NCBI RefSeq assembly: GCF_947500605.1
Contig: NZ_CANMSJ010000002.1
Span: 1-64,000 of the forward strand
Source: an uncultured Lacinutrix sp.
Lineage (GTDB): Bacteria > Bacteroidota > Bacteroidia > Flavobacteriales > Flavobacteriaceae
Length of the DNA stretch: 64,000 nucleotides
Direction: 5' to 3'
Shown here: positions 1 through 64,000 of the stretch, piece after piece
Layout of the letters: the number at the start of each line of letters is the position of its first letter
Position numbering within the stretch: position 1 is the stretch's first letter
Notes under the pieces: model-generated
Seen by the model: only the letters and a program-made list of their open reading frames with translations
The model's database searches: none
What the model was told of the DNA's origin: nothing
Made by a program: the position numbers and the translations under genes

Positions 1-3000
1 TCTGCATTGTCATCACAAACTTCTAGTGGTGTTAATACTGCCGCTGTTGTGATTTGTGGTGTTGGATTGACAATAAGCACTAAGTCTACAAATGTTGCAC
101 AGTCGGTTGCTATTGTAGAACTTTCTACACGGATGTAAATAGTTTGTGTGTTAACTACAATGTTGTTGTACGGACTTGTTAATGCATTGACATTGTTATC
201 GGCATCAGACATCGTTTCATGGTAAGTTACCGTAAGTCCTGGTGCACCTCCTGTGATTTCTGCTTCGGTATCCGATAACATAAACTCTCCAAAGCCATCA
301 CTGTCTGGATCGCAATATTCTAAATCGGCTGGTGTGAAAGCTACTGGTGCTTGCTCAACTACTAAATCTAGTGAAGTTGTATCGTAACAACCTGTATTTG
401 TGTCTTGCACGCCTACATAAATAGTTTGCATGTTTGGCACAACGTTAGTATACGGACTTACTAATGGGTTTGCTTGTGCATCTGCATCGGCTTGCGTAAA
501 GTAATACGTTACAGCGTATGCTGGATTACCGCCTGAAATTTCGTTGTTTTTTATGGTTAAATCTATTTCTGTTATTCCATCTGGTGTACCATCATCACAA
601 ACTTCTAGTGGTGTTGGTACGACTATGGTTGGTAGTGGGTCTGCCGTAACAGTTACAGTACTTGATGCTGGACAAATTCCATTTGTAAGGTAATCTACTA
701 TATAATCCGCTCCAGGTGTTCCTCCTGAAATAGTACCTGTTGCAGAATCTAAAGTAGCTGCATCTATTGGTGCTGTATTAAAACTATAAGTTCCACCTGG
801 TGTTTCAACTGTATTTATAATTGCACCATCACAAGTTGGCGTGTAAGTAAACAGAGGATTATCTGTTGTATTTACTGTTAAATCTACTGTTGTAGATGAA
901 GGACAGTCTCCTCCAAATGAATATTCTACAACGTATAATGCTGAAGAATTACCACCTGTTACTGTTCCCGTTACCGGATCTATACTCGCTCCATCTGTTG
1001 GTAATGGATTAAAAGCATAAGTTCCACCTGGAGTTGTTTCTGTTGCAACAGTTCCACCATCACAAGTTGCTGCCATAGTAAAAGTCGCATCAAGAGTTTC
1101 ATTAACAATTACTGTAAATGAGCTTGTTGATGGGCAAGTACCATTTGTTGTATAATCTACGGTATAACTTGCTAATGAAGTTCCTCCAGTAATTGTTCCT
1201 GTTGCAGCATCTATTGTTGCTCCATCTGTTGGAATTGGATTTAATACATAAGTTCCTCCTGGCAAAACTACTGTATCTATTATTGCTCCATCACAGGTTG
1301 GCTGCATCGTGAAAGTAGAGTTATCGAAAGCATTAACAGTGATAGTAAAACTAGTTTCTCCAAAACAAGTTGGGTTCAAATTATCGTCTACTCTAACAAA
1401 TATAGTTTGCGTAGGAGTATCTATATTAGAATAAGTTGCTGGATTAGTTATTGGATTTGTAGATGTAGCTACATCAGTTTGTAGTTCATAGAAACTAACT
1501 GTATAATTAGTTGGGTCTTGACCATCTAGAATCTCTGCTTCTAACGCTGCTAAATCGAAAACCTCAACACCATCATTTGTAGGGTCATCACAAAGTTCAA
1601 TATTCATAGGTTGAGTAGCAATTGCTAATGGGTTAACAACTAAGTTAAACACCGCTGTTGCTGAAGCAATATAACATGCTGGATCTTGTATACTTTCAAT
1701 TCTTACAAAAATAGGTTCTGGACTTCCAGTATTTAAATATGGACTTGTTAAAGCATTTGTTCCAGCATCTGCATTTGCAAAATCTGCATAATAACTTACA
1801 CTAAAATCTGCTGCTGCTTGAGTTCCAAGTATTGCTGCATCTTGACTTGTTAAGTCAAAAGATTCTGACCCATCGTTAGAAATATCATCACAAACTTCCA
1901 TATCTGGTGCTGTATTTAAAACTATATCTAAATACAACAATTGAAACTCATCAATTGCAAAACATGTTCCAGACTGTACATCGTCTATTCTTATATAAAC
2001 AGTTTCTCCATCTGTTCCCGTATAAGTAGATGGGTTTGTTATTGGGTTTATATCTGCATCTGCATCTGCCTGAGAATTATGAAAAGTAACAACAATAGTT
2101 GTAGGATCTTGTGCACCAATTGCAGTAGTTTCATTTTCGGTTAAATCGAAAATGACAGGCCCTCCACTATCACATTCGGTAATATCATTAACTGCTTCAA
2201 CAGTAGGACCAGGAATAAATTCTATAAAAATAGAATCTGAAGTTTGACAAGTTGCAGAAAAAACAATATCTACAGAATAAGTTCCTTCTACTACTGCATC
2301 TAAAGTAGAACCTGTTTCTCCAGGAATTACGGCACCATCTAAATACCAAGTATGAGTTGCTGTTGGTAATCCTGTATCTAATGTAACTGATGTTCCTTGA
2401 CACTCTGCAGTACCTGCAGTAATAGTTAAATCATCTCCTAAATCTCCACCTAAATTAAAAGAACCTGCTCCTAAAAATACAGCAGCATCATATGCTGTAT
2501 CTCCAGCATCTGCAACAACTAATTTTATAGTATAAGGATTGTTTGGTATTACTGAAGAAACCGCAGTCATTGGTACTGTATAACCAAGAAAATTTGTTGG
2601 ATTATTAGCTGGCGGTTCTCCTCCAGCTCCATAATAGGAATCAAAAAATTGAGGGTTTGCCGATGCACAACCAGTATTCCAAGTATTATCTCTAACTGTA
2701 AAAACTGTTACCACATCTGTTGTACCTGGTACTAAAGCTAAATTTGTAGTAATTCCTGTTGTTTGATCCGTTAATAAAAATGCAAAGGCATCTGTATAAC
2801 TACACTGAAAACCACCATACTCTTCAGAAGCAAAAATAAAATCAAAACTAATTTCATTTACTGTAGGCACAAAATCGAACTGAAGATAAGATGCATTATT
2901 AGTATTTACTCCACCAATTTGTGCTTCTAAATCTGCATCTCCAGGCCATCCTCCTCCTCCTTCACTTTGGGTACCGTCTTCTGGACCTTCAGCCTCTAAA

Positions 3001-3929
3001 GCATCACCTGAAGATAATATTATTCCACCCTCAAACCCAAAAGCACCCGGTATAGCAGTAAAAGCTCCAATACCATTTACACTACTAAAATTATTCCCAG
3101 AACTAGAGACTATATTTGATACTGCAGCACATGGACTATCTATTAAAACATCTTCAACTAATTGTTGAGAATTATAAGTTGTAATATCTACGTCTATATA
3201 AGGTGATAAAACTTCAATCGTAATTGTTACAGATTCTGAACATCCCGTAGGATTTGCATCAGTAACTGTAAATGTAGTTGTAAACGTACCTATATTATTA
3301 AATTGATGACTAACAGATTCTCCTGTTGCTGTAGCAGATCCATCTCCATAATTCCATGTATACACTGCACCTGTTCCATCGTCTGAGAATGTAGCACTAC
3401 CATTAAAATCTACAGAACCTCCAACTGGAATTTGCACAACGCCTGCTCCATTCGCAACTGGATTTGTAGTATCTATTGTAGGTGTAATAGTTTGACAGGA
3501 CTGTAAACAAGTTATATCTGCTGCCCATCCAATTGTATTACCACCAGCATCACTAACAAACTCTAACGTAATACAGCCTGTTGCACTTGTTGTTGAGGCT
3601 GCAATAGTACCTGGATTATTAGCTGCGCCTGCTCCAGAAAACACTCCTATTACTGCGCCTGTAGTATCATCACCATCGTAAATTGTAAGAAAATCGGCAC
3701 CAATTTGAGTTCCAAAAAAAGTAAATGCTAATTGTATAAACTGATCTGGTCCATCTGGACAAATTGTTAATACAAGATTCTCATTATCTCCATAATTAGA
3801 AGAACCGCCTCCTGAATCATATAATGTACCAGAACACTGGTTAATAGTTCCGTTTTGCATTAACACATCTTGTGCGAATAGTACAGAGGAAGAAAAGAGC
3901 AAAACTAAAATTAACGTAAAATACTTCAT
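1..3929 (-). CDS. Giant secreted cell-surface protein with CUB, PKD and choice-of-anchor-L domains (5' part, runs off the left edge)
   Basis: The frame is open from the ATG at 3929 to the window edge, about 1309 codons with no stop. The first 20 residues are a signal peptide ending FSSSVLFAQ. A CUB-like domain (about 25-140, with FLTIYDGDD) is followed by a PKD domain (about 141-239, with WNYGDGSA) and a choice-of-anchor-L domain (about 240-491, with FDFIFASEEYGG). Next come an Ig-like segment, three repeats of about 94 residues with a CDD...FDLT signature, three repeats of about 76 residues with a CDG...PGGTY signature, and at least three more of the first type. Such proteins in Flavobacteriia are normally exported by the type IX system and carry a C-terminal sorting domain, which would lie outside the window. 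A role in adhesion or gliding is inference. The domain types are confident; the specific function is unknown. Confidence 0.85.
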   Translation of the reverse strand, partial: MKYFTLILVLLFSSSVLFAQDVLMQNGTINQCSGTLYDSGGGSSNYGDNENLVLTICPDGPDQFIQLAFTFFGTQIGADFLTIYDGDDTTGAVIGVFSGAGAANNPGTIAASTTSATGCITLEFVSDAGGNTIGWAADITCLQSCQTITPTIDTTNPVANGAGVVQIPVGGSVDFNGSATFSDDGTGAVYTWNYGDGSATATGESVSHQFNNIGTFTTTFTVTDANPTGCSESVTITIEVLSPYIDVDITTYNSQQLVEDVLIDSPCAAVSNIVSSSGNNFSSVNGIGAFTAIPGAFGFEGGIILSSGDALEAEGPEDGTQSEGGGGWPGDADLEAQIGGVNTNNASYLQFDFVPTVNEISFDFIFASEEYGGFQCSYTDAFAFLLTDQTTGITTNLALVPGTTDVVTVFTVRDNTWNTGCASANPQFFDSYYGAGGEPPANNPTNFLGYTVPMTAVSSVIPNNPYTIKLVVADAGDTAYDAAVFLGAGSFNLGGDLGDDLTITAGTAECQGTSVTLDTGLPTATHTWYLDGAVIPGETGSTLDAVVEGTYSVDIVFSATCQTSDSIFIEFIPGPTVEAVNDITECDSGGPVIFDLTENETTAIGAQDPTTIVVTFHNSQADADADINPITNPSTYTGTDGETVYIRIDDVQSGTCFAIDEFQLLYLDIVLNTAPDMEVCDDISNDGSESFDLTSQDAAILGTQAAADFSVSYYADFANADAGTNALTSPYLNTGSPEPIFVRIESIQDPACYIASATAVFNLVVNPLAIATQPMNIELCDDPTNDGVEVFDLAALEAEILDGQDPTNYTVSFYELQTDVATSTNPITNPATYSNIDTPTQTIFVRVDDNLNPTCFGETSFTITVNAFDNSTFTMQPTCDGAIIDTVVLPGGTYVLNPIPTDGATIDAATGTITGGTSLASYTVDYTTNGTCPSTSSFTVIVNETLDATFTMAATCDGGTVATETTPGGTYAFNPLPTDGASIDPVTGTVTGGNSSALYVVEYSFGGDCPSSTTVDLTVNTTDNPLFTYTPTCDGAIINTVETPGGTYSFNTAPIDAATLDSATGTISGGTPGADYIVDYLTNGICPASSTVTVTADPLPTIVVPTPLEVCDDGTPDGITEIDLTIKNNEISGGNPAYAVTYYFTQADADAQANPLVSPYTNVVPNMQTIYVGVQDTNTGCYDTTSLDLVVEQAPVAFTPADLEYCDPDSDGFGEFMLSDTEAEITGGAPGLTVTYHETMSDADNNVNALTSPYNNIVVNTQTIYIRVESSTIATDCATFVDLVLIVNPTPQITTAAVLTPLEVCDDNA

Positions 3930-30596: not shown

Positions 30597-32894
30597 TTAT
30601 TCGCTTTTTTGGCGTGTTAATGCCTCTTTATCTTTCTGTTGTGCATCTATTACTGCTATTGCAGTCATATTTACAATTTCGTCCACACTTGCATCTAATT
30701 GAAGAATATGAACAGGTTTACGTAATCCCATCATAATTGGACCAATAGACTCTGCTTTATTCAACTCTTTTAACAATTTATATGTAATGTTTGCAGACTC
30801 TAAATTTGGAAAAATAAGTGTATTTACTTTATGTCCGCATAATTTTGAAAATGGAAAAATAGACTGAAGCATTTTACTGTTTAAAGCAAAGTCTGTTTGT
30901 AACTCTCCATCTACTAATAAATCTGGATGTCTATTATGTAAATAAGAAACTGCTTCGCGAACTTTAGTAGCTGTTTGGTCTTTTGATGATCCAAAGTTTG
31001 AATAACTAGTCATTGCCATTACTGGTTTTAGACCGAACATTTTCACTACTCCAGATGTCATTTGAGCAATTTTTATTAAATCTTTAGCTGAAGGATTAAT
31101 GTTTATAGAAGTATCACTTAAAAACATTGGTCCACGCTCCGTCATCATTACATTGGTAGTCGCAATTCTAGTAGAACCAGGTGCTAAACCAATTAGCTCT
31201 AACATTGGTTTTACAACTTGTGGGTAACTACGAGAATACCCTGAAATTAAAGCATCGGCATCACCTTCGTTCACCATCATGGCTGCAAAATAGTTACGCT
31301 CTCTCATTAATTTTTGAGCTTCTAATAAAGTTACTCCTCTACGCTTACGTTGCTTCCAGTATACTGTTGCATATTTGTTTTTTTGCTCTACTTGCTCATC
31401 AGACTTTGGATCTATAATTTGAACATCGGCATCAAACTCTAATTCTTCTTTTAATCTTTCAATTTCATCTTTTCTTCCTAATAAAATAGGAATTGCGATA
31501 CCTTCGTCATGCACTATTTGTGCTGCTTTAAGTACATCTATGTGGTCTGCTTCTGCATAAACAACACGTCTTGGGCTTATTTTAGCTCTATTTAATAAAA
31601 GTCTAACAATTTTATTATCATTCCCTAAACGCTCAAGCAAGCTATCTCTATACTTTTCCCAATCTTCAATGGGCTCTAAAGCAACGCCACTTTCCATAGC
31701 TGCTTTTGCAACTGCAGGAGGTACTTCGGCAATTAGCCTTGGATCGAAAGGTTTTGGTATAATATATTCTTTACCAAAAGTTAACCTTGTTTCGTCGTAT
31801 GCAATATTTACCTGTTCTGGCACTGGTTCTTTTGCTAATTTAGCTAAAGCCATAACTGCTGCCATTTTCATAGCTTCGTTAATTTTAGTTGCGCGAACAT
31901 CTAATGCACCACGGAAAATAAAAGGAAAACCAAGTACGTTATTTACTTGATTAGGATGATCGCTACGACCTGTAGCCATAATAATATCATCTCTAGTATC
32001 TACTGCTAATTGGTATTGAATTTCTGGGTCTGGATTCGCCATTGCAAAAACAATAGGGTTCTTAGCCATTACCAATAACATAGCTGGAGTTACAATATCT
32101 GAAGTCGATAAACCTACAAAAACGTCGGCATCTTTCATGGCTTCATCTAATGTGTCTATTTTTCTATGTGTTGCAAATTCTGCTTTTTGAGATGTAAGAT
32201 TATCTCTGTCGTCTCTAATAACACCTTTACTATCTAGCATAACAACGTTTTCACGTTTTGCGCCAAATGCCAAATATAATCGTGTACAAGAAATAGCAGC
32301 TGCTCCTGCTCCACTTACTACTATTTTTGCATCTTCAATCTTTTTTTCTGAAAGCTCTAATGCATTTAATAAAGCAGCGGCCGAAATAATTGCAGTACCA
32401 TGTTGGTCGTCATGCATTACAGGAATATCTAATTCCTCTTTTAAACGTCTTTCGATTTCAAAAGCTTCAGGTGCTTTTATATCTTCAAGGTTAATACCAC
32501 CAAAAGTTGGTGCTATCATCTTTACTGTTTGTATAAATTCTTCAATATCTTCTGTACCGACTTCAATATCGAAAACATCGATGTCTGCAAATATTTTAAA
32601 AAGTAAACCTTTACCTTCCATTACTGGCTTTGAGGCTTCAGGTCCTATATTACCTAAACCTAAAACAGCAGTTCCGTTAGAAATAACAGCAACTAAGTTT
32701 CCTTTTGCTGTGTATTTATAAACATTATTAACATCTTTTGCTATCTCTAAACATGGCTCTGCTACACCTGGAGAATAGGCTAATGCCAGATCTCTTTGAC
32801 TTGCGTATTTTTTTGTTGGTACAACTTTTATCTTTCCTGGAGTAGGCTTAGCGTGATATACTAAGGCTTCTCTTCTTTTGCTTTGTTTGCTCAT
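30597..32894 (-). CDS. maeB: NADP-dependent malic enzyme with C-terminal phosphotransacetylase-like domain
   Basis: This 765-residue protein is the large MaeB-type malic enzyme, converting malate to pyruvate and CO2 with NADP. The malic domain shows SQRDLALAYSPGVAEPCLEI and MHDDQHGTAIISAAALLNAL; the Rossmann motif VVSGAGAAAISCTRLYLAFG is near residue 193. From about residue 430 the chain becomes a phosphate acetyltransferase-like domain (MERGPMFLSDTSININPSAK, HKVNTLIFPNLESANITYKL), which in the family is regulatory, sensing acetyl-CoA, and not catalytic. A TACATTTG box at 32918-32925 is the likely -7 element. It appears to be a single-gene transcript. Confidence 0.95.
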   Translation of the reverse strand: MSKQSKRREALVYHAKPTPGKIKVVPTKKYASQRDLALAYSPGVAEPCLEIAKDVNNVYKYTAKGNLVAVISNGTAVLGLGNIGPEASKPVMEGKGLLFKIFADIDVFDIEVGTEDIEEFIQTVKMIAPTFGGINLEDIKAPEAFEIERRLKEELDIPVMHDDQHGTAIISAAALLNALELSEKKIEDAKIVVSGAGAAAISCTRLYLAFGAKRENVVMLDSKGVIRDDRDNLTSQKAEFATHRKIDTLDEAMKDADVFVGLSTSDIVTPAMLLVMAKNPIVFAMANPDPEIQYQLAVDTRDDIIMATGRSDHPNQVNNVLGFPFIFRGALDVRATKINEAMKMAAVMALAKLAKEPVPEQVNIAYDETRLTFGKEYIIPKPFDPRLIAEVPPAVAKAAMESGVALEPIEDWEKYRDSLLERLGNDNKIVRLLLNRAKISPRRVVYAEADHIDVLKAAQIVHDEGIAIPILLGRKDEIERLKEELEFDADVQIIDPKSDEQVEQKNKYATVYWKQRKRRGVTLLEAQKLMRERNYFAAMMVNEGDADALISGYSRSYPQVVKPMLELIGLAPGSTRIATTNVMMTERGPMFLSDTSININPSAKDLIKIAQMTSGVVKMFGLKPVMAMTSYSNFGSSKDQTATKVREAVSYLHNRHPDLLVDGELQTDFALNSKMLQSIFPFSKLCGHKVNTLIFPNLESANITYKLLKELNKAESIGPIMMGLRKPVHILQLDASVDEIVNMTAIAVIDAQQKDKEALTRQKSE

Positions 32895-60904: not shown

Positions 60905-63841
60905 ATGAGAGATACAACCATTTTTGTTTTTTGCATATTCCTATTGTTAACCAACTGTAAAAAAAAAGACGATACAACTTCAGCAACAAAAGATAAATCT
61001 TTAATATCGTACGTAAACCCTTTTATTGGCACTAGTGGTCATGGTCATACGTATCCTGGAGCAACTATGCCTTTCGGGATGATGCAATTAAGCCCAGATA
61101 CTCGGTTAGACGGTTGGGATGGTTGTTCAGGCTATCATTATAGCGACAATGAAATCTACGGATTCTCACATACACATCTCAGCGGAACTGGTGTTAGCGA
61201 TTATGGAGACATTTTAATAATGCCTACAAATGCACAAATTTTTAACAATGGAGCTAATGGCGAAAAAGGATACAAATCTAAATTCTCGCACGATAATGAA
61301 GTTGCTGAACCTGGTTTTTACAAAGTACATTTAGACGATACGAATATTGATGTAGAATTGACGGTTTCTAAACGTAGTGGAATTCATAAATATAAGTTCC
61401 CATCTAACGAAAATCAATTTGCTATTGTAGATTTAATACATAGAGATAAGGTTTTAGATGCTAAAATTGAAACAATCTCTAAAACAGAAATTGTTGGTTA
61501 TCGCTTTTCTAATGCTTGGGCAAAAGACCAACGCTTATATTTTGTAATAAAAACATCGCATCCTTTTAATGATGTATTGCAATCTCCTCCTGAAACAGGA
61601 ATGCAAGAAGCACAAAAAATAGCATTAAATTTTAGAAACCCAAACAATGATCCTGTTTATATTAAAGTAGGAATTAGTGCAGTTGATGTAGAAGGCGCAA
61701 GAAAAAATCTAAAAGGAGAAATTGGAAAACAAACCTTTGAACAAGTAAAAAAAACTGCTCAAGATTTCTGGGAAAAACAATTACAAAAAATAGTTATTGA
61801 AAGTGACAACACAAACAATAAAACCAATTTTTACTCATCGATGTATCACGTTGCTTTAGCTCCAAACTTGTATCAAGATGTAGATGGAAGGTATCGTGGT
61901 ATGGATTTGGAAATTCATAAATCTGAGAATTTCGACTATTATACAGTCTTCTCACTTTGGGACACCTATCGTGCTGTTCACCCACTTTACACAATTATTG
62001 AACAAGACAAAACTAACGATTTTATAAACACCTTTTTAGCAAAGCACGATGAAGGTGGCATTATGCCTATTTGGGATTTAAGTGCTAATTACACTGGTTG
62101 TATGATTGGATATCATGCTGTGCCTGTTATTGCAGATGCTTATTTAAAAGGTATTCGTGGTTACGATAAAGACAAAGCTTTAGAAGCAATGATGCATAGT
62201 GCAACGCGTGATAAATTAGGATTAAAAAGTTATAAAGAATTTTGATTTATTCCTGTAGAAGAAGAAAGTGAATCGGTTTCTAAAACTTTAGAATACGCAT
62301 ACGATGATTGGACGATTGCCGAAATGGCAAAGGCAATGAATAAAAAGGAAGTTTATAAAGAGTATACAGAAAGAGCACAAAACTACAAGAACGTTTTCGA
62401 TCCAGAAACACAATTTATGCGAGGACGTTTTCGTAATACTTGGTTTACTCCTTTCGATCCTTACGAAGTCAATTTTAATTATACCGAAGCTAATGCATGG
62501 CAATACAGTTTTTACGTGCCTCAAGACATTTCTGGATTTACCAATTTACTTGGCGGAAAAGATAAATTAGAAGCCAATCTAGATAAGTTATTTGTTGCCG
62601 AATACAAAACTTCTGGTCGACATCAAGTAGACATTACAGGTTTAATTGGGCAATATGCGCATGGAAACGAACCGAGTCATCACATGGCTTATTTGTACAA
62701 TTTCGTTAATAAACCATATAAAACACAAGAGAAAGTACATCAAATTTTAACCCAGTTATATACTAATACACCAAATGGCATCTCAGGAAATGAAGATTGC
62801 GGACAAATGAGCGCATGGTATATTTTTAGCTCAATCGGTTTTTATCCTGTTACACCTGGAAGCAATCAATATATTATTGGAACACCTTTATTTAACAAAG
62901 CAACTTTTAACTTAGAAAGTGGAAAAACATTTACTGTTTCTGCTGAAAATTTAAGTGACACAAACATCTATATCGCGTCAGCAACTTTAAATGAAAAACC
63001 ATACAATCAATCTTATATTTCTCATGAAAACTTAATGAATGGTGGAACACTTCATTTTAAAATGAAAGACTCTCCAACAGATTGGGCAACCAAAGACAAC
63101 GAAATACCAGAAACTAGAATTGAAGATCACATTATTATTACACCTCCATTTATTTCGAAAGGAAAGACTGCTTTTAAAGGCGAAACTAGAGTTGAATTAC
63201 AAAGCAACACAAAAGACGCTTCAATTTATTACTCTGAAAACAATTCTGATTTCAAAATATACAAAAAGCCTTTTACCATTTCTGAAGCTGAAACATTAAA
63301 AGTCTATTCACAATTAAACGGAATAAAAAGCAAGACGTTAACCACAAATTTCTTTAAAATAGATCCTGATTTATCTATTAAATTAGACTCAGAATATGCT
63401 AACCAATATAATGCAGGTGGAAATAATGCTTTAATAGATGGTATTTTAGGCACTCAAGATTTTAGAACTGGTACTTGGCAAGGTTATTTTGATACAGACT
63501 TAATTGCAACAGTAGATTTAGGAAGCAGCAAATCTATAAACATGGTAAAAGTAAATTTTCTGCAAGACCAGCGTTCTTGGATTTTTCCTCCATCAGAGGT
63601 TTCATGCTTAGGATCTAACGATGGTATTAACTTTTCTATAATTGATAGCTTAATAAAAATAGACAACAGCACTCCTTCCGAAACCGTTAAAATTAACACT
63701 ACCTATTTTAAACAAGTTTCAAAAAAGTATCGTTTTATTAAAGTGATCGCAAAAAAACTAGGTCAGCTCCCAAAATGGCACTTAGGACATAAAGACAATG
63801 GAAGAAGTTGGTTGTTTGTAGACGAAATCATCATTAAATAA
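60905..63841 (+). pseudogene. GH92 family alpha-mannosidase gene interrupted by one in-frame TGA
   Basis: One reading frame of 979 codons is broken only at codon 447 by TGA (62243-62245). Upstream, the product has a lipoprotein-like start (FCIFLLLTNC, Cys18), the GH92 beta-domain with YVNPFIGTSGHGHTYPGATM and SGYHYSDNEIYGFSHTHLSG, and the start of the (alpha/alpha)6 barrel. Downstream in the same frame are ESESVSKTLEYAYDDWTIAE, NEDCGQMSAWYIFSSIGFYP, a chitobiase C-like segment and a discoidin-type (F5/8 C) domain ending FVDEIIIK. The local sequence KSYKEF-stop-FIPVEEE suggests a Gly codon GGA changed to TGA. GH92 enzymes cut alpha-mannosides. An MFS sugar transporter follows. Confidence 0.88.
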
Positions 63842-63922: not shown

Positions 63923-64000
63923 ATGAACCAACAAAAATCTTACCGCTCATCATTTATTTTACTAACTGCCTTATTCTTTCTTTGGGGATTTATTACCGTT
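63923..64000 (+). CDS. Sugar MFS transporter, FucP/GluP type (5' end only)
   Basis: An ATG at 63923 opens a frame that runs off the right edge after 26 codons. The translation MNQQKSYRSSFILLTALFFL continues WGFITV, the first helix pattern (FFLWGFITV) of the FucP/glucose-galactose permease group of the major facilitator superfamily. It follows the GH92 gene by 81 bases on the same strand, which fits a glycan-use locus. Only the first helix is visible, so the family call is tentative. Confidence 0.6.
   Translation, partial: MNQQKSYRSSFILLTALFFLWGFITV

Follow-up and report, generated by a model that had tools for sequence, protein, structure and literature searches.

A single in-frame TGA interrupts the only GH92 alpha-mannosidase gene of a bacterial genome, probably as a very recent nonsense mutation

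Does one stop codon in the middle of an otherwise open gene record the loss of an enzyme, a fault of the assembly, or a codon that the ribosome passes? The question is raised by a GH92 alpha-mannosidase gene on the forward strand at positions 60905-63841 of the window, by which we mean the whole stretch of DNA that was analysed, namely the first 64 kb of contig C2 in a 3.50 Mb genome (G000) of 40 contigs that is 99.98% complete and that its homologues place in the Flavobacteriales. Counted with its internal TGA the gene has 978 codons, and the frame runs for 446 codons to the TGA at 62243-62245 (codon 447) and then for a further 531 codons to a TAA. Both domains of the family are present: Glyco_hydro_92N is matched at residues 36-258 (9e-79) and Glyco_hydro_92, in one frame, over profile positions 1-185 before the stop (1.1e-61) and 189-463 after it (4.3e-114), while the NCBIfam model TIGR01180 is matched over profile positions 11-444 upstream and 464-747 downstream of the TGA. 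The original prediction that a GH92 gene is broken here by one in-frame TGA, with no frameshift, was thus borne out, the Pfam matches abutting across the stop in the same frame. A profile search of the whole genome returned a single Glyco_hydro_92 place, with '1 TGA' inside. The features of the locus are as follows.

60905..62242, + strand: GH92 front piece of 446 codons, with a lipoprotein-like N-terminus, the N-terminal domain and the first 185 of 464 catalytic-domain profile positions
62243..62245, + strand: in-frame TGA, codon 447, where all 57 aligned homologues have a sense codon
62246..63841, + strand: GH92 back piece, with the remainder of the catalytic domain, chitobiase-C-like and F5/8-type-C domains and its own TAA
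62324..62326, + strand: first ATG past the stop, 27 codons after the TGA, opening a 505-codon frame
62486..62488, + strand: codon of Glu528, which aligns with the catalytic acid Glu535 of BT3130
62795..62797, + strand: codon of Asp631, which aligns with the general base Asp637 of BT3130
C2:63923-65239 (window part 63923..64000), + strand: MFS sugar-transporter gene directly downstream of GH92
C2:65236-66237: Asparaginase_2-family gene behind the MFS gene

A lipobox-like motif, LLLTNC, was read by eye near the N-terminus of the front piece, and the product of the MFS gene is gluP/fucP-like, with a match to TIGR01272 above the cut-off. The Asparaginase_2 family includes glycosylasparaginases. 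To judge from sequence, the mannosidase, the gluP/fucP-like transporter and the Asparaginase_2-family protein together would fit a cluster for the use of mannose-rich N-glycans. No publication title on the GH92 locus appeared among the literature matches listed.

For the enzyme itself, the position of the stop is likely to be decisive. The parts of PMC5930347 that deal with the active site give Glu535 as the general acid and Asp637 as the general base of BT3130, and describe the GH92 active-site cavity as built from both domains. The 102-residue spacing in chain 6f8z matches 535/637, which identified the catalytic pair in that chain and then, by alignment, Glu528 and Asp631 in the window gene, both of them beyond the stop. 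Since the 446-residue product would end before either catalytic residue it should be inactive, and since the cavity draws on both domains, we infer that neither piece should work alone. This mapping, with acid and base after the stop, supports the earlier claim that the stop falls in the catalytic barrel and that a truncated product would be inactive.

The homologues indicate what codon 447 encoded. A search with the back piece covered 99 genomes including G000 and found a match in 52. Among the 26 loci L003-L028, 25 (all but L022 of G009) are open in a single frame of 922-986 codons; of 80 loci in named genomes 34 were examined, and 32, all of them with a single frame of at least about 950 codons, entered the alignment, which comprises the window gene and 57 homologues (25 and 32 from the two sets). 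L022 was dropped for length, as was L050, in which the contig starts inside the gene and the frame is open across the codon-447 site, and L062 was left out because the contig of its matched GH92 gene starts after the site (a second GH92-like gene is also present there). In the column of codon 447, one identical sense residue stands in all 57 homologues, which include at least three pairs of rows probably of the same genome (L017/L045, L018/L049 and L020/L061). A conserved stop, which the original prediction had named as the finding that would speak against it, was looked for and found in 0/57, and the ancestral residue that it had proposed agrees with the one in the column and fits a change of a single codon. 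The stop is thus absent from the orthologues and lies ahead of essential residues, as in a nonsense pseudogene.

Elsewhere in the gene no decay is apparent. The alignment has 226 columns that are invariant across the 57 homologues, and the window gene departs from them at one only, the stop. Against the genome G002, dN/dS is 0.105 over 977 codons, with 0.067 before the stop and 0.163 after it, the latter being the highest among 37 stretches compared with G002 (the median of the other 35 is 0.058). This high value for the back half could hint at an older relaxation, but the hint is weakened by the low dS of the back half to G002 (0.268, the second-lowest of the 37 stretches) and by polarised counts that put no excess on the window branch; measured against G006, the back halves of the window gene and of G002 have nearly equal values (0.097 and 0.101). 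When changes were polarised by eight other genus members, the whole gene had 42 amino-acid and 83 synonymous changes on the window branch and 31 and 60, respectively, on that of G002 (Fisher p = 1.0), the back half had 20 and 35 on the window branch and 20 and 18 on the G002 branch (p = 0.14), and the accessory C-terminal part had a relatively larger amino-acid share in G002 (p = 0.034, one of five tests). With the 225 other invariant columns intact and no branch-specific excess, relaxed selection after the stop was not seen, and either the loss is too recent to show or it is not real.

The age of the stop can be bounded from the same columns. Zero hits in 539.7 nonsynonymous sites of 225 codons and in 118.0 further nonsense sites of the remaining codons limit the time since loss of constraint to at most 0.0046 substitutions per site (95%), a bound that would hold equally for a base-call error. 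Set against the pooled dS of 0.288 between G000 and its closest relative, G005 (13 genes, including PolA from an exchanged stretch), this limit indicates that the stop is probably younger than the split of the two. If half of that dS belongs to the G000 branch, and assuming a clock and a neutral rate near dS, the stop would have arisen within about the last 3% of that branch. The adjective 'recent', which had been applied to the stop from the start, thereby acquires an upper limit.

The genus comparison, which took in 13 genomes (G000 and 12 others), bears on whether the gene can be dispensed with. GH92 is open in nine of the 12 (G001, G002, G003, G004, G006, G007, G010, G011 and G012), and in G006, G010 and G012 the gene order is metallophosphoesterase, GH92, a divergent MFS gene, an asparaginase-family gene and PolA, an order that G000 shares with an MFS type of its own. 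G005 and G008 gave no match to the GH92 back piece nor to the DNA around the stop. By its flanks G005 is the closest relative, its DNA being about 95% identical along C2:43.5-59.2 kb and 76-91 kb; its metallophosphoesterase and PolA genes lie 335 bases apart, nothing of C2:60767-67488 was recognised between them, the whole genome gave no asparaginase match, and neither GH92 nor MFS was matched in the stretches searched. In G008 an asparaginase match lies 172 bases from the metallophosphoesterase gene, with no GH92 or MFS match in the locus stretch searched. Since a PolA tree groups G008 with G010 and G012, both of which bear GH92, the absences in G005 and G008 look like separate losses.

The remaining genome, G009, calls for a different reading. 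Four of its genes, those for TMEM260, metallophosphoesterase, GH92 and asparaginase, change frame along their length, the deacetylase match contains a stop, and PolA is whole, so that 5 of 6 neighbouring genes in region L158 (C1:1860000-1874000) of this one-contig, 84% complete genome are split or stop-bearing. Frame breaks in so many genes suggest indels of the assembly, and the breaks, which are probably uncorrected errors of this kind, were not counted as biological loss. If its base is right, the stop in the window would add a third loss to those of G005 and G008; that the locus is repeatedly absent within the genus is a finding of the present analysis.

The neighbourhood also bears marks of exchange. 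G002 has the MFS gene that follows GH92 at 97% identity, but G001, G003, G006, G009, G010 and G012 carry in its position a gene that is only about 30-41% alike where the two could be matched; on this comparison the MFS gene appears to be one swapped within the GH92 operon. Beyond the window, C2:67001-77000 (L032) is of mosaic ancestry, while on both sides of it G000 is closest to G005: at 67-71, 74-75 and 76-77 kb, the kilobases in which G000, G002 and G005 can all be aligned, G000 is 94.6-97.6% like G002 and 80.9-89.6% like G005, G005 is 94.5-96.1% like G006 over 67-70 kb, and the PolA tree places G000 with G002 and G005 with G006, both with support 1.000. This pattern suggests homologous exchange next to the GH92 cluster. 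Within the mosaic stretch, at C2:70886-72825, a gene for an EcoO109I-type restriction endonuclease converges on a C5 cytosine methylase gene. Inside GH92, the front half has a dS to G002 of 0.58 and the back half one of 0.27; another short tract of exchange may lie behind this drop. We also weighed whether G000 had acquired the GH92 segment recently from a genome like G002, but did not adopt this reading, because each kilobase of C2:61-66 kb is 89.5-93.1% identical between G000 and G002, values that fall inside the spread of the vertical flanks.

The main rival reading is that the organism carries an intact gene and that the stop is a base-calling error of the draft assembly. In its favour, the gene is without other damage, as it would be after such an error, and in a draft of 40 contigs one stop comes down to one base. 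The assembly around the stop argues the other way. Matches in the window were found for 48 G002 ORFs of at least 100 aa, and the GH92 ORF is the single one of these to run into a stop there. Three others are partial, two at the window ends and one a short ORF matching part of a repetitive gene near window position 600. A generally poor assembly of the window is not supported by this comparison, nor is an error load of the G009 type seen in it. In a hexamer coding-potential scan of C2:1-293000, that is, the window and 229 kb beyond it, the GH92 stop had the top score (0.93) of 52 flagged stops, the second-ranked scoring 0.75 and having an ATG three codons on. Finally, the absence of the locus from G005 and G008 makes a real loss in G000 more plausible by raising its prior. 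On balance we consider a base-call error unlikely, though by no means negligible.

Several other candidate breaks were set aside in the course of this survey. Beside the GH92 stop, individual inspection covered the third- and sixth-ranked of the 51 other flagged stops, of which the third (C2:149406) is the junction between two adjacent genes and the sixth lies antisense within a long gene. The G002 counterpart of window 30597-32894 has a stop as well, but this falls three residues short of where the window's protein ends and is no break. On the minus strand at window 3-3929, a 1309-codon frame that contains repeated units extends past the start of contig C2, where the assembly may have broken in the repeats; the suspicion that window 1-3929 is a decayed region was rejected, as it is this single long open frame leaving the contig start.

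Could the stop be real and the enzyme still be made? The intact sequence of GH92 beyond the stop would be compatible with readthrough of the TGA at some level, to give a little full-length enzyme with the stop as an expression brake, and a tolerated readthrough of this kind, with trace amounts of full-length mannosidase, would be a recent, reversible down-tuning of the glycan-use operon rather than its loss. Signs of recoding were looked for and not found. SelA has 0 matches, and the six weak tRNA-Sec matches, none at the gathering score, were identified by ARAGORN as Ser, Tyr, Leu, Leu, Tyr and Phe tRNAs, on which grounds selenocysteine recoding was rejected; the UGA column in relatives is neither conserved nor Cys/UGA-aligned, 57 of 57 carrying one other residue. 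A UCA anticodon was found at 0 of the 35 tRNA places listed, each read with ARAGORN, in a list that may be incomplete (150 of 361 candidates scored at first look; Ala and Ile tRNA absent from it). A tRNA-Trp with a 4-bp anticodon stem was considered as a suppressor and rejected, the stem being an ordinary 5 bp, and the 78 bases tested after the stop have no unusually stable fold that could serve as a recoding hairpin (z -0.48). Of 144 ORFs of at least 250 aa in C2:1-293000, 7 end in TGA (the GH92 front piece is presumably among them), and each of two further genes has its terminal TGA at the identical codon in G002; by these signs TGA is a stop in this genome. The base following TGA 62243-62245 is T, and a T after the stop codon makes a strong termination context. 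Readthrough by a near-cognate tRNA would usually insert another residue and so change an invariant position.

The argument of Belinky et al. (2021; PMC7918605), in the parts that concern us here, lends readthrough some plausibility, many in-frame stops in bacterial genes being held there not to mark pseudogenes and possibly to lower expression. Those parts focus on stops common to orthologues, in order to limit artefacts, whereas the present stop is common to 0/57 homologues. We rate readthrough as very improbable. Still less credible is a gene in two pieces, with translation of the back piece starting anew at ATG 62324 and the halves either assembling into an enzyme or having separate roles. 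That ATG does open a frame of 505 codons with both catalytic residues, but the resulting 505-residue fragment would be without the N-terminal export signal, the N-domain and the front of the catalytic domain, GH92 active sites are made up of both domains according to the active-site sections of PMC5930347, and a split at the codon-447 point occurs in 0 of the 57 aligned homologues. Little or nothing supports either readthrough or a split enzyme.

We propose, with a probability of roughly 0.72, that a very recent one-codon nonsense mutation has inactivated the sole GH92 alpha-mannosidase gene of this genome, a dispensable glycan-use gene. If the base is real, ribosomes would stop after residue 446, releasing a fragment without either catalytic residue and making no full-length protein, and about 1.6 kb of mRNA past the stop would go untranslated, which may by a polar effect lower expression of the MFS and asparaginase-family genes. 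The gene would then be a dispensable part of a small glycan-use cluster, lost repeatedly by related species if the absences are losses, and G000 would have been caught at the first step of loss, before decay. Such an event is ordinary gene loss and involves no new mechanism. Its value lies in being a clean example of an apparent first step, with one stop in an undecayed gene that is gone from a very close relative, and in serving as a teaching case with a caution attached, namely that a single base, itself unverified, is all that would lead a draft annotation to call the gene a pseudogene. The locus would gain in importance only if the full-length protein turned up.

In terms of known systems, the window gene resembles the GH92 exo-alpha-mannosidases of Bacteroides thetaiotaomicron, BT3130 (6f8z), BT3965 (6f91) and BT3990 (2wvx), in both Pfam domains and in the catalytic Glu and Asp, here located in the back piece, and the three chains are matched on both sides of the stop; it differs from them in its interrupted frame and in its extra C-terminal chitobiase-C-like and F5/8-type-C domains. 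With recoded UGA, whether as selenocysteine or in the UGA-Gly and UGA-Trp codes, it shares a UGA in an open frame, but unlike those systems the genome has no selenocysteine machinery and no suppressor tRNA that we found, and uses TGA as a stop. Unlike the cases in the portions of Belinky et al. (2021; PMC7918605) considered here, the stop is known from one genome and has no orthologous stop. It is nevertheless the recent bacterial nonsense pseudogenes of that work that the locus resembles, in having a single in-frame stop within a gene otherwise under purifying selection.
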